Positions 32,133-35,458 of a stretch of DNA of 36,268 nt are shown in pieces. Numbering within the stretch: the first letter of the stretch is position 1; each line of letters opens with the position of its first letter. The notes under the pieces are model-generated. The model searched no databases, was not told where the DNA came from, and was given only the letters and a program-made list of their open reading frames with translations. The DNA is from Candidatus Woesearchaeota archaeon (GTDB taxonomy: Archaea > Nanobdellota > Nanobdellia > Woesearchaeales > GW2011-AR4): contig JAHFQA010000007.1 of the NCBI GenBank assembly GCA_023266475.1, positions 1 through 36,268 of the forward strand, in the 5' to 3' direction. The position numbers and the translations under genes were made by a program.

Positions 32133-33272
32133 ATGGTATTCATAATAAAAATTATTGACAAATATATAGTCAGCTTGCTGTGCAACTTTCTCGGATTTTT
32201 TAATAAAACAGCAAAAGTCAGCCATGTTGAATGCCGCAAAATCCTTGTAGTCCAGCTTTGGGGCGTTGGAGAAACGATTTTGACCTTGCCTGCAATTGAA
32301 GCATTGAGAAAAAAATTTCCCGATGGTGAAATAAATGTTTTGGCCACTTCAAGAAACAAAGATGTTTTTTTTGAGAACAAAAATATAAACAAAATCATTG
32401 CATTAAAACTCACTCCATTTTCTGTTCTTGGATTTATTTTTAAAAACATAAAAAAATATGAGTTAGCTATAGATATGGAAGAGTATCTTAATATTTCAGC
32501 AATAATTTCTTTCTTCGTTGCCAGGAAAACTTTTGGATATTCACATAATTCAAGGGCTAAATTATATTCAGAAAAGGCAAGGTACAACGACAAGCAGCAT
32601 TCTGTACAAACTTTTCTTGATTTGGTAAGATTATTAGGCATTTCTTATGATGCTGACAAATTGCCAGGATTAAATTATTCAAAAAATGACAGGAATTTCG
32701 TTGACAAGATTTTGAAAGAAAATAAAATTAAAAAAGGCGATTTTGTTGTCTGCATTGCTCCCGGGGCTGCAGAGTCCGCAAAGGCAAGAATGTGGCCATT
32801 TGATAGGTTTGCTGAACTATGCGACGAGATAATTGCAAAGTACAATGCAAAAATAATCTTTGTAGGCATCTTGAGCGAGAATGAATTAATAGAGAATGTG
32901 CTGAGAAGTATGGAGCAAAAAGATAAAACAATAAATACAGCTGGCAAAATAAGCCTAAATCAATTATTTTATTTGATAATTAAATGCAAATTATTCATTG
33001 GCAATGATGCAGGACCTATGCACATTGCAGCTGCGCAAGGTATTAAGACGCTTGGATTGTTTGGTCCAAATTTGCCCTTGAGATTTGGGCCCTATGGAAA
33101 AGGGAACATTGGATTATATAAGGGTTACAACTGCGAATTCAGCCCATGCATTAATGTGCATAAAGGCCAAGTTCCAGATTGCCTATACCCAAGAAACAGC
33201 AACGATTATCAGAAATGTATGAAGAATATAAGCGTCGATGATGTTTTGAAGGAAGTGGAAAAGTTGGTTTAA
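32133..33272 (+). CDS. Family 9 glycosyltransferase (heptosyltransferase-like)
   Basis: 379 aa, GT-B fold. N-terminal domain: KILVVQLWGVGETILTLPAI (family: RxxxxGDxxxTxP) and FPDGEINVLATSRN. C-terminal domain: CIAPGAAESAKARMWPFDRF, then LFIGNDAGPMHIAAAQGIKT and LGLFGPNLPLRFGPYG, the nucleotide-sugar-binding signature of GT9. Four cysteines cluster near the end (NCEFSPCINVHKGQVPDC), as in several heptosyltransferase homologues. Bacterial relatives add ADP-heptose to LPS core; an archaeon lacks LPS, so an S-layer or N-glycan acceptor is more likely. A heptose-phosphate kinase gene lies 2.4 kb downstream, supporting a heptose-type donor. It overlaps the convergent next gene by 4 nt. Confidence 0.9.
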   Translation: MVFIIKIIDKYIVSLLCNFLGFFNKTAKVSHVECRKILVVQLWGVGETILTLPAIEALRKKFPDGEINVLATSRNKDVFFENKNINKIIALKLTPFSVLGFIFKNIKKYELAIDMEEYLNISAIISFFVARKTFGYSHNSRAKLYSEKARYNDKQHSVQTFLDLVRLLGISYDADKLPGLNYSKNDRNFVDKILKENKIKKGDFVVCIAPGAAESAKARMWPFDRFAELCDEIIAKYNAKIIFVGILSENELIENVLRSMEQKDKTINTAGKISLNQLFYLIIKCKLFIGNDAGPMHIAAAQGIKTLGLFGPNLPLRFGPYGKGNIGLYKGYNCEFSPCINVHKGQVPDCLYPRNSNDYQKCMKNISVDDVLKEVEKLV

Positions 33273-34021
33273 TCGCCTACATGCACATACTCTCCATACG
33301 TGAAAAACCCAACAAGCTGTTTTATTTTTGCAAGCCTTGGAAACAAGTCCTTTTCCAGCGAAACTGAATTCTCGAACATTTCAAAAATCTCGGGCTTGAA
33401 GATATAAATGCCTGCATTGACAATATTAGTTGAATAGTGCCTTGGCTTTTCCTGAAAATCAACAACTAAATCTCCGTCAAGAATTGCTGTCCCATAGCTG
33501 CTTGTTTTTTCCCTTGTCATCAAGCCCATTGTGGCAAGCTTATCTGATTCGAGGTGCTTTTTTATCATTTTCAACAAATCAAAATTGTTATAAGTGTCTC
33601 CTGACATTACTATAAAGCTGCTATTTATCTTATCCTTCATCGCTTTCAATGCTTCTGCATTGCCTCTGGCTTGTTTTTCAACAATTTCTACGCTGATATT
33701 TGCACCAGAAATCCCGTCCAGCAGCTTAGTGATATTTCTTGTATGCTGCGTTATGACATACAGCTGTTTCACTCCATGATTTGCAAAAAACTCAATCTGC
33801 TGCTTTATTAAGGGCATTCCCCTAACTTCATTCAAAGCATTTTCCTGGTGCTCCCCTTTCAATAATAAAACAGCAGCGCTTGCAGACTGCTCCTGCAGCC
33901 CTTTTCTTAAAAAATATTCAATTGCCTGCGACCTGCTCCTTATCACTGAACCGTCCACTTTTGAATCTACCAGTTTCAACAATGAGTTATCTACAGATAT
34001 TGCAATCTTTGATTTTGGCAT
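33269..34021 (-). CDS. Ribbon-helix-helix / sugar nucleotidyltransferase-like fusion
   Basis: 250 aa. Residues 1-45 form a CopG-type ribbon-helix-helix (KIAISVDNSLLKLVDSKV, then RSRSQAIEYFLRKGLQE). Residues about 48-250 follow the NTP-transferase fold: VRGMPLIKQQIEFFANHGVK, FIVMSGDTYNNFDL, ILDGDLVVDFQEKP, NIVNAGIYIFKPEIF. The signature GGxGTRLxP loop is replaced by LLKGEHQENAL, so the nucleotide-binding glycines and catalytic arginine are missing. The enzyme half may therefore be a sugar-nucleotide or sugar-phosphate sensor driving the DNA-binding half, or a divergent enzyme. Palindromes lie over its own promoter and that of the divergent cupin gene. Confidence 0.85.
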   Translation of the reverse strand: MPKSKIAISVDNSLLKLVDSKVDGSVIRSRSQAIEYFLRKGLQEQSASAAVLLLKGEHQENALNEVRGMPLIKQQIEFFANHGVKQLYVITQHTRNITKLLDGISGANISVEIVEKQARGNAEALKAMKDKINSSFIVMSGDTYNNFDLLKMIKKHLESDKLATMGLMTREKTSSYGTAILDGDLVVDFQEKPRHYSTNIVNAGIYIFKPEIFEMFENSVSLEKDLFPRLAKIKQLVGFFTYGEYVHVGD

Positions 34022-34022
34022 G

Positions 34023-34123
34023 GTATGAATAAGTAGTGAAAAGTATTACTTTATATATATTTATATACTTCAATATATAATTGAAAGCGAAAAGCTTATA
34101 AATAAGGTATGAAAAGTTCATAC
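34023..34123. promoter_or_regulatory. Divergent promoter region with palindromic operator candidates
   Basis: Plus strand: TATA box CTTATAAATAAG (about 34095-34106), followed directly by the palindrome GTATGAA-AAG-TTCATAC (34107-34123), which would cover the transcript start of the cupin gene. Minus strand: TATA-rich stretch TATATAAATATATATAAAG (about 34051-34069), followed by the imperfect palindrome AGTAGT...ATTACT (34032-34050) and a half-site GTATGAA (34023-34029) next to the RHH gene's ATG. Placement between TATA and start is typical of archaeal repressor sites. The RHH fusion protein is the obvious candidate binder. Confidence 0.55.
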
Positions 34124-34136
34124 TATAGTGATAAAA

Positions 34137-34547
34137 ATGTCAGAAGAGGAAAAATTCAAAGAAGACAATGTTCAGCTTTTAGCAGAATTCAAAGGCGAGA
34201 GGCACGACCATGTCTGGGGATATGAGCTATGGGTTGAGAATAATGAAAAATACTGCAACAAGCTGCTGATTTTGAATAAGGGATTTGAATCAAGCTGGCA
34301 TTATCATGAGCACAAGGATGAGACATTTGTGATTATTCAAGGGCAAGTTTCGCTTACATATGCGAATAAATTAGGCGCACCTGCCCAGACAATAATTTTA
34401 AATGACGGGGATAAATTCAGATTGAAGCCAAAAGTTGTCCATACTTTTAAATCACTGGCACCTAAAAGCACCGTTATGGAAATATCAACAACAGAAGACG
34501 GGGATAATGTAAAGTTGCGCCCCGCAAGAAGATTAATCGAAGAATAG
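34137..34547 (+). CDS. Cupin-domain protein, mannose-6-phosphate isomerase type II-like
   Basis: 136 aa from ATG 34137; the GTG at 34128 lies too close to the predicted transcript start and adds only three residues. Single cupin barrel: GYELWVENNEKYCNKLLILN, then SSWHYHEHKDETFVIIQGQV supplying the His-x-His...Glu metal ligands, and LKPKVVHTFKSL with the last histidine. Such proteins resemble the C-terminal domain of bifunctional mannose-6-phosphate isomerase/mannose-1-phosphate guanylyltransferase. Its neighbours suggest sugar-phosphate isomerisation or binding for glycan synthesis. Substrate not determined. Confidence 0.88.
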   Translation: MSEEEKFKEDNVQLLAEFKGERHDHVWGYELWVENNEKYCNKLLILNKGFESSWHYHEHKDETFVIIQGQVSLTYANKLGAPAQTIILNDGDKFRLKPKVVHTFKSLAPKSTVMEISTTEDGDNVKLRPARRLIEE

Positions 34548-34558
34548 AATTCCAAGTG

Positions 34559-35458
34559 ATGAAAATGCTCGATTTCACTAAAATAAAAACAATCTCCATC
34601 AAGCAGAGAAAGAACAAGGTAAAGTTAAGTAACTTGATTAAGCCTGAGAATTCTAAATTACTTATTAAATCAAAAGATTTTGATGAATTAATAGATAAAA
34701 TAGTTAACACCCATAAAAATAAGAAACAGATTATCCTGATGATGGGTGCACATGTTATAAAAACTGGCATGAGCTTGCTGATTATAGACTTGTTGAAAAA
34801 AGGAATTATAAATCACATAGCAATGAACGGAGCTGGCCCTATTCATGATTTTGAGCTTGCTTTGGTTGGGGAAACATCCGAGTATGTTGAAAAAACAATT
34901 GAAGACGGGACTTTTGGAATGATTGAAGAGACTGGAAGCATACTTAATGAAGCAATCAAAGAAGGCGCAAATAACAACAACGGTATGGGTTATTCAATTG
35001 GAAAAAGAATAAATGACTTGAATCTCCCAAACAAGGAATACAGCATTCTATACAATGCTTACAAATTAAAAATCCCAGCTACTATCCATGTTGCAATTGG
35101 AACAGACATAATTCACCAGCATCCAAGCTGTGACGGAGCGGCTCTTGGACAGACATCGTACCATGATTTCAAGATTTTTGCTGAGAGTGTCACCAAGCTT
35201 GAAGGCGGGGTTATTTTGAACGTCGGTTGCGCCGTCATACTTCCAGAAGTTTTTTTGAAAGCCTTGACAATTGCAAGAAATATTAGCTGTAAAGTTGAGC
35301 ACATAACAGCTGCAAACATTGACATGATAGATCATTACAGGCCAAGGGAAAATGTCGTCAACAGGCCAACGTCATTGGGCGGAAGGGGATTTATAATAAT
35401 TGGAAAGCATGAAGATACAATTCCAACGTTACATAGAAAAATAATTGAAATGATTTAA
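34559..35458 (+). CDS. Deoxyhypusine synthase-like protein
   Basis: About 299 aa; GTG 34556, ATG 34559 and ATG 34565 are all possible starts, the last having GTGATG as potential RBS. The centre, IILMMGAHVIKTGMSLLIID and AMNGAGPIHDFELALVGET, resembles the deoxyhypusine-synthase NAD-binding fold. The region AIGTDIIHQHPSCDGAALGQ follows. The segment that carries the catalytic lysine in true deoxyhypusine synthase (GSDSGARPDEAVSWGK) is not found, so modification of aIF5A is doubtful. From memory, paralogues of this type sit in sugar-nucleotide and heptose clusters. Its place 9-12 nt after the cupin gene and ahead of a heptose kinase fits a glycan-precursor role; the reaction is unknown. Confidence 0.78.
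   Translation: MKMLDFTKIKTISIKQRKNKVKLSNLIKPENSKLLIKSKDFDELIDKIVNTHKNKKQIILMMGAHVIKTGMSLLIIDLLKKGIINHIAMNGAGPIHDFELALVGETSEYVEKTIEDGTFGMIEETGSILNEAIKEGANNNNGMGYSIGKRINDLNLPNKEYSILYNAYKLKIPATIHVAIGTDIIHQHPSCDGAALGQTSYHDFKIFAESVTKLEGGVILNVGCAVILPEVFLKALTIARNISCKVEHITAANIDMIDHYRPRENVVNRPTSLGGRGFIIIGKHEDTIPTLHRKIIEMI

Follow-up and report, generated by a model that had tools for sequence, protein, structure and literature searches.

A ribbon-helix-helix domain fused to a degenerate sugar nucleotidyltransferase in Woesearchaeota: a probable regulator of a divergent ADP-heptose operon

The stretch of DNA analyzed here (the window) comprises 36,268 nucleotides from a Candidatus Woesearchaeota archaeon (assembly GCA_023266475.1, JAHFQA010000007.1) and is an entire contig, labeled G000:C40, of a genome with 1.32 Mb assembled and 88% completeness. 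An open reading frame of 250 amino acids was confirmed on its minus strand at exactly 33269-34021. It joins a predicted ribbon-helix-helix (RHH) DNA-binding domain to a sugar-nucleotidyltransferase domain with altered catalytic motifs. The fusion gene is divergent from genes for ADP-heptose synthesis, and operator-like repeats are present at both of the divergent promoters (Table 1).

Orthologues of the fusion protein were found in a contig scan of records of Candidatus Woesearchaeota and related Nanoarchaeota/Nanobdellota; at 43-82% identity, they retain the protein length and the altered loop described below. More than 50 Woesearchaeota orthologues are in the same motif-lost state as the window protein. 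Relative to five near orthologues, differences amount to 48-56% at codon position 3, 14-18% at position 1 and 9-12% at position 2, and this concentration at position 3 indicates that the gene is under purifying selection. A sequencing error or pseudogene is ruled out by the codon-position differences and the many orthologues with the altered loop. In a tree of 55 sequences (a quick tree, with some forks open), three clades each form one group: A, to which the window protein belongs, B and C. The Diapherotrites/Aenigmarchaeota sequences ("D") also form one group, except for one sequence (L164) that joins B and keeps the loop. The genome that contains the window carries A, B (contig C36; loci L002, L056) and C (contig C26; loci L003, L057).

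For the N-terminal domain, the evidence comes from the family and from structure prediction. Pfam RHH_1 matches the window protein weakly (E 0.022 for the whole protein, 0.0018 for its first 48 residues) and is matched by 20 of 22 homologues, with a best E value of 9.7e-7. A 22-sequence profile of the first 48 residues matches three entries in the PDB, namely, E. coli NikR (E 2.5e-4), the antitoxin Rv0298, and 2bj1, which we take to be P. horikoshii NikR; NikR models match the window protein at residues 5-49 only. An AlphaFold2 model of the monomer, built from a 77-sequence alignment (mean pLDDT 89.7, pTM 0.80), has a leading segment and helices at residues 12-20 and 30-44 in this part (mean pLDDT about 79-91). 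An earlier fold from 28 close orthologues had modeled the RHH part poorly (pLDDT 34-49), which the 77 sequences fixed. The N-terminal strand has no partner in the model, as expected for a monomer, since RHH proteins are obligate dimers. At the family level, this sequence relatedness and the predicted beta-alpha-alpha arrangement make a solid case for membership in the RHH (MetJ/Arc/CopG) superfamily.

The remainder of the protein is a sugar-nucleotidyltransferase domain by both sequence and predicted fold. Pfam NTP_transferase (PF00483) matches with an E value of 2.3e-23 (83.5 bits versus a cut-off of 21.2). Model residues 48-250 superimpose on the plant GDP-mannose pyrophosphorylase VTC1 with Z 27.2 and 1.8 A over 200 residues in VIA-align, which lists nucleotidyltransferases only, so this superposition does not address the RHH part. 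Foldseek matches of the model include HddC (5xhw, E 5.6e-15) and the GMPPA/GMPPB complex. HddC is also the top PDB match by sequence, but the curated HddC model NF049965 is not passed (40.5 bits versus a cut-off of 300). An earlier note on this DNA, made from the sequence alone, had read the first 45 residues as a CopG-like RHH and the rest as a sugar-nucleotidyltransferase fold, and it had proposed structural superposition as a check; the profile matches and the model uphold both readings, with VTC1 and HddC as the structural matches.

Alignment to paralogues that keep GGxGTRLxPLT shows that the GGxGTRLxP loop is replaced by LLKGEHQENAL through a 9-residue deletion. The earlier note had recognized this replacement and had overlooked a change near the other end of the domain: the second metal-binding Asp (D-I-G motif) is His in 51 of 51 aligned clade-A sequences, and the protein ends just past this residue, H247. 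The same position is His in clade C, Asn in 12 of 13 clade D sequences (one has a gap), and Asp in 7 of 7 clade B sequences. Read from the alignments, catalysis is predicted to be lost twice over in clade A, by the loop deletion and by the Asp-to-His change at 247. In contrast, the GD, EKP, and N-x-G-x-Y motifs are kept and near invariant in clade A, where G120, D142, E191, K192, N202, G204, Y206, and E223 show little or no variation. As known from RmlA and GMPP, the residues of these motifs and E223 line the sugar and phosphate site. The domain has therefore probably kept the ability to bind a sugar phosphate or nucleotide sugar but not to convert it; we infer ligand binding because the pocket residues are retained and because of the gene context.

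That context is conserved. With few exceptions, the clade-A fusion gene and an ADP-heptose synthesis operon are transcribed divergently; the operon consists of GmhA or a cupin, HldD or a GSU2086-family protein, the HldE kinase, GmhB, and the HldE adenylyltransferase. The kinase lies within the available stretch in 41 of 53 clade-A loci, with some of the others cut by contig ends. Because the operon encodes its own adenylyltransferase, the fusion protein is not needed as an enzyme.

Both promoters at the locus carry an operator-like element positioned between a TATA-like box and the start codon. The palindrome GTATGA-N5-TCATAC is found upstream of 33 of 51 clade-A loci, compared to 0 in 15,300 dinucleotide shuffles; a looser two-half-site pattern is found at 39 of the 51, compared to 8 in as many shuffles, and a three-half-site form at 16, compared to 0 in shuffles. 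The exact palindrome occurs as a single copy in the 1.32-Mb assembly. A survey of 39 genomes gave 25 exact 19-bp sites, of which 22 adjoin gene A (the reversed control gives 0), and the site is at the locus in 21 of 23 genomes with gene A, the other two (G001 and G048) carrying GTATTACTTTTTCATAC there. A wide regulon was considered and rejected, given the single exact copy in the assembly and a pattern that, with at most one mismatch, is no commoner than the reversed control. The operator of NikR, the nearest solved RHH protein, is GTATGA-N16-TCATAC (PMC7055735), and the clade-A half-site is identical to its half-site. The conserved half-site repeats are consistent with DNA binding by the predicted RHH domain.

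We propose that the clade-A fusion is probably a one-component regulator of the divergent ADP-heptose operon and most likely acts as a repressor that also controls its own gene, with a dead enzyme domain that would bind a heptose intermediate; its two-domain architecture and the operator-like sites at the promoters are what such a regulator would be expected to have. RHH dimers would lie side by side on 6-bp half-sites (GTATGA/TCATAC) about one helical turn apart, occupying two half-sites in the operon promoter and three in the fusion gene's own promoter. Protein bound there, between TATA box and start codon, would block initiation at both promoters. The ligand, most likely a heptose intermediate of the controlled pathway (heptose 1-phosphate or ADP-heptose), would sit in the dead enzyme pocket, where the loop that grips the triphosphate and the second metal Asp are gone but GD, EKP, N-x-G-x-Y, and Glu223 are kept. 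Its binding would alter the DNA affinity of the RHH domains. The earlier note had suggested a transcription factor that senses a nucleotide-sugar or sugar phosphate and controls glycan-precursor genes. A factor built from an RHH domain and a dead nucleotidyltransferase agrees with all of the results obtained here. Its regulatory half gains support from the operator-like repeats, which lie at each of the two promoters and are specific to this locus, and from the NikR half-site, and the divergent operon narrows the target to ADP-heptose synthesis.

Several observations weigh against this proposal. Four outlying clade-A loci (L142, L145, L148, and L155) have neither the palindrome nor the heptose operon. 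The co-occurrence of gene A with the heptose kinase speaks for the proposal (kinase present in 34 of 35 genomes with gene A versus 3 of 24 without it), but these genomes are related and not independent samples, so the Fisher p of 8e-12 overstates the evidence. The window protein alone scores under the Pfam gathering score for RHH_1. The enzyme domain is not specifically HddC-like, as archaeal GlmU-type and mannose-1-phosphate guanylyltransferase profiles outscore HddC. Finally, the control may be activation instead of repression.

Three other explanations were weighed. A regulator of the heptose operon could carry a nucleotidyltransferase domain that binds no small molecule and acts as an oligomerization scaffold or binds a protein partner. 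This would fit the lost loop and metal Asp, and the operator evidence does not depend on any ligand. However, GD, EKP, N-x-G-x-Y, and E223 are almost invariant in clade A even though overall identity drops to 43-60%, and since a plain scaffold would not need these residues, their conservation makes this explanation rather unlikely. A bifunctional PutA-like protein, that is, one that is still an enzyme, though its chemistry has changed or it uses another nucleotide, and that also regulates its own operon, draws some credit from sister clade B, in which the same fusion keeps all motifs and may well be active. We regard it as improbable for clade A, in which both the triphosphate loop and the second metal Asp are missing and whose operon has its own heptose 1-phosphate adenylyltransferase, HldE domain 2.

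It is also conceivable that the RHH domain is an antitoxin or other accessory module and that the heptose operon is not under the control of this gene. Antitoxins are common among short RHH proteins, and one of the three PDB matches of the RHH profile is the antitoxin Rv0298. Against this, the conserved partner of the fusion gene is a biosynthetic operon, and the palindrome is at that operon's promoter, which leaves this explanation with very little likelihood. A toxin-antitoxin pair as such was ruled out, as no conserved small toxin-like partner gene adjoins the clade-A gene.

The composition of the operon varies in its first two slots among clade-A loci L104-L157. The first gene is GmhA in 23 loci and a cupin in 20, never together, and in many cupin genomes, including that of the window, the assembly shows no match to GmhA at all. 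The divergent cupin singled out in the earlier note is interchangeable with GmhA in this position. The cupin may substitute for GmhA as sedoheptulose 7-phosphate isomerase. The next slot holds an HldD-like ADP-heptose epimerase in 23 loci and a GSU2086-family protein in 16, again never together, and the latter may serve in place of the epimerase, at this step or a related one. The contig ends within the kinase gene; positions 165-314 of the heptose kinase profile are found at G000:C68:1-450, and therefore the operon probably continues on contig C68. On the convergent side of the fusion gene are a GT9 heptosyltransferase-like gene, DUF2304, GT2, and a gene that we take, from its sequence, to be AglB. 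The stop codons of the fusion gene and the heptosyltransferase-like gene overlap at 33269-33272.

Table 1. Features at and around the fusion gene, in positions of the window
Feature	Positions	Strand	Basis or remark
RHH-nucleotidyltransferase fusion gene, clade A, 250 aa	33269..34021	-	Open reading frame, Pfam, alignment, AlphaFold2 model
Predicted RHH DNA-binding domain, residues 1-45	33887..34021	-	Family-level Pfam RHH_1, NikR profile match, model helices
Sugar-nucleotidyltransferase domain, residues 48-250	33272..33880	-	PF00483, VTC1, HddC 5xhw
Degenerate catalytic loop LLKGEHQENAL, residues 53-63, with a 9-residue deletion relative to clade B	33833..33865	-	Alignments
His247 in place of second metal-binding Asp, invariant in clade A	33281..33283	-	Alignment
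TATA-like box ATATATAAA of fusion gene, abuts element 2	34050..34058	-	Sequence
Operator-like element 2, fusion gene's own promoter: half-sites GTAATA / CACTAC / TCATAC, 11 and 10 bp apart	34023..34049	-	
TATA-like box TTATAAATA of divergent operon, abuts palindrome 1	34097..34105	+	Sequence
Operator-like palindrome 1 of divergent operon, GGTATGAAAAGTTCATACT; core GTATGA-N5-TCATAC at 34107-34123	34106..34124	+	
Cupin, first gene of divergent operon, in GmhA's place	34128..34547	+	GTG at 34128; ATG at 34137 equally possible
GSU2086-family protein (deoxyhypusine-synthase-like), in HldD's place	34556..35458	+	NF052581 E 4.5e-126
Heptose-7-phosphate kinase (HldE domain 1), cut by contig end	35636..36268	+	TIGR02198 E 5.1e-75
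Heptosyltransferase-like GT9, convergent with fusion gene, near AglB	32133..33272	+	PF01075, NCBIfam heptosyltransferase families

The paralogues place the clade-A protein in a broader series. Clade B has the same fusion and retains GGxGTRL, the PK lysine region, GD, EKP, and D-I-G, i.e., all catalytic motifs, and the paralogue on G000:C36 has 34% identity to the clade-A protein over its full length. On this motif evidence, clade B may well be an active enzyme that carries an RHH domain. The earlier note had seen a regulator half joined to a probably inactive enzyme half; for clade A this reading is supported, but the intact paralogue B means that the fusion alone does not mark a dead enzyme. 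Clades C and D are degenerate. Clade B is divergent from a class II FBPase, followed by a class I aldolase and a type II GAPDH, and clade C from UDP-glucose 6-dehydrogenase and a stand-alone sugar nucleotidyltransferase. Their promoters have tandem repeats of half-sites related to those of clade A, TCATAY-N4-TCATAY as direct repeats at 7 of 7 clade B loci (1 in 2,100 shuffles) and TCTTAC-N5-TCCTAC at 5 of 6 clade C loci (0 in 1,800 shuffles), although these counts are descriptive because the patterns were derived from the same sequences. No repeat was found in the examined stretch of clade C locus L060. With somewhat less confidence than we have in the clade-A regulator, we favor a family of DPANN archaeal regulators derived from an RHH-sugar nucleotidyltransferase fusion, in which different clades would control different sugar operons (heptose, gluconeogenesis, and UDP-glucose dehydrogenase) through NikR-like half-sites. 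Several would be pure sensors and B perhaps still an enzyme, forming an enzyme-to-sensor series.

Gene regulation in DPANN archaea is, to our knowledge, still poorly understood. Searches of the open-access literature for an RHH-nucleotidyltransferase fusion, ADP-heptose in DPANN, and RHH in Woesearchaeota returned nothing relevant by title or abstract, which is weak evidence of absence. An RHH repressor and a dead sugar nucleotidyltransferase as a sensor are each known ideas, and we found no joint description of them in that literature. If our proposal is correct, this single locus provides a regulator with its operator, the operon that it targets, and a small set of candidate ligands, all of which can be tested with purified parts. 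Paralogues with intact and lost motifs would allow the change from enzyme to sensor to be traced. The locus is also an indication that the ADP-heptose pathway of Woesearchaeota is regulated.

Among known systems, NikR resembles the regulatory half. It is the closest solved relative of the N-terminal RHH, shares the half-site, and is a one-component sensor with a C-terminal ligand domain, as we propose for the fusion protein. The strand residues at aligned positions in clade B are R-T-T, as in NikR's RVTIT, whereas those of clade A are K-A-S. Clade A also differs in having a nucleotidyltransferase fold where NikR has its C-terminal nickel-binding domain, and in half-sites that are 5 bp apart rather than 16 bp.

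Trifunctional PutA provides a precedent for an RHH domain that is fused to a metabolic enzyme and autoregulates its own genes (PMC5293562), but its enzyme half is active and unrelated, whereas the clade-A half has lost catalytic motifs. GMPPA is a precedent for the other half: this sugar nucleotidyltransferase is non-catalytic, binds GDP-mannose, the product of the pathway, and regulates GMPPB (PMC11228364), and our model has the GMPPA/GMPPB complex among its best structural matches. However, GMPPA acts by protein contact with the active subunit, has a longer C terminus, and has no DNA-binding domain. HddC, the D-glycero-D-manno-heptose 1-phosphate guanylyltransferase, resembles the clade-A protein in fold and heptose pathway context, but it is a stand-alone enzyme, in contrast to an RHH fusion without the catalytic loop. 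A further comparison is the clade B paralogue, the same fusion and also divergent from sugar-metabolism genes, which differs in its intact catalytic motifs and in having direct operator repeats where clade A has a palindrome.
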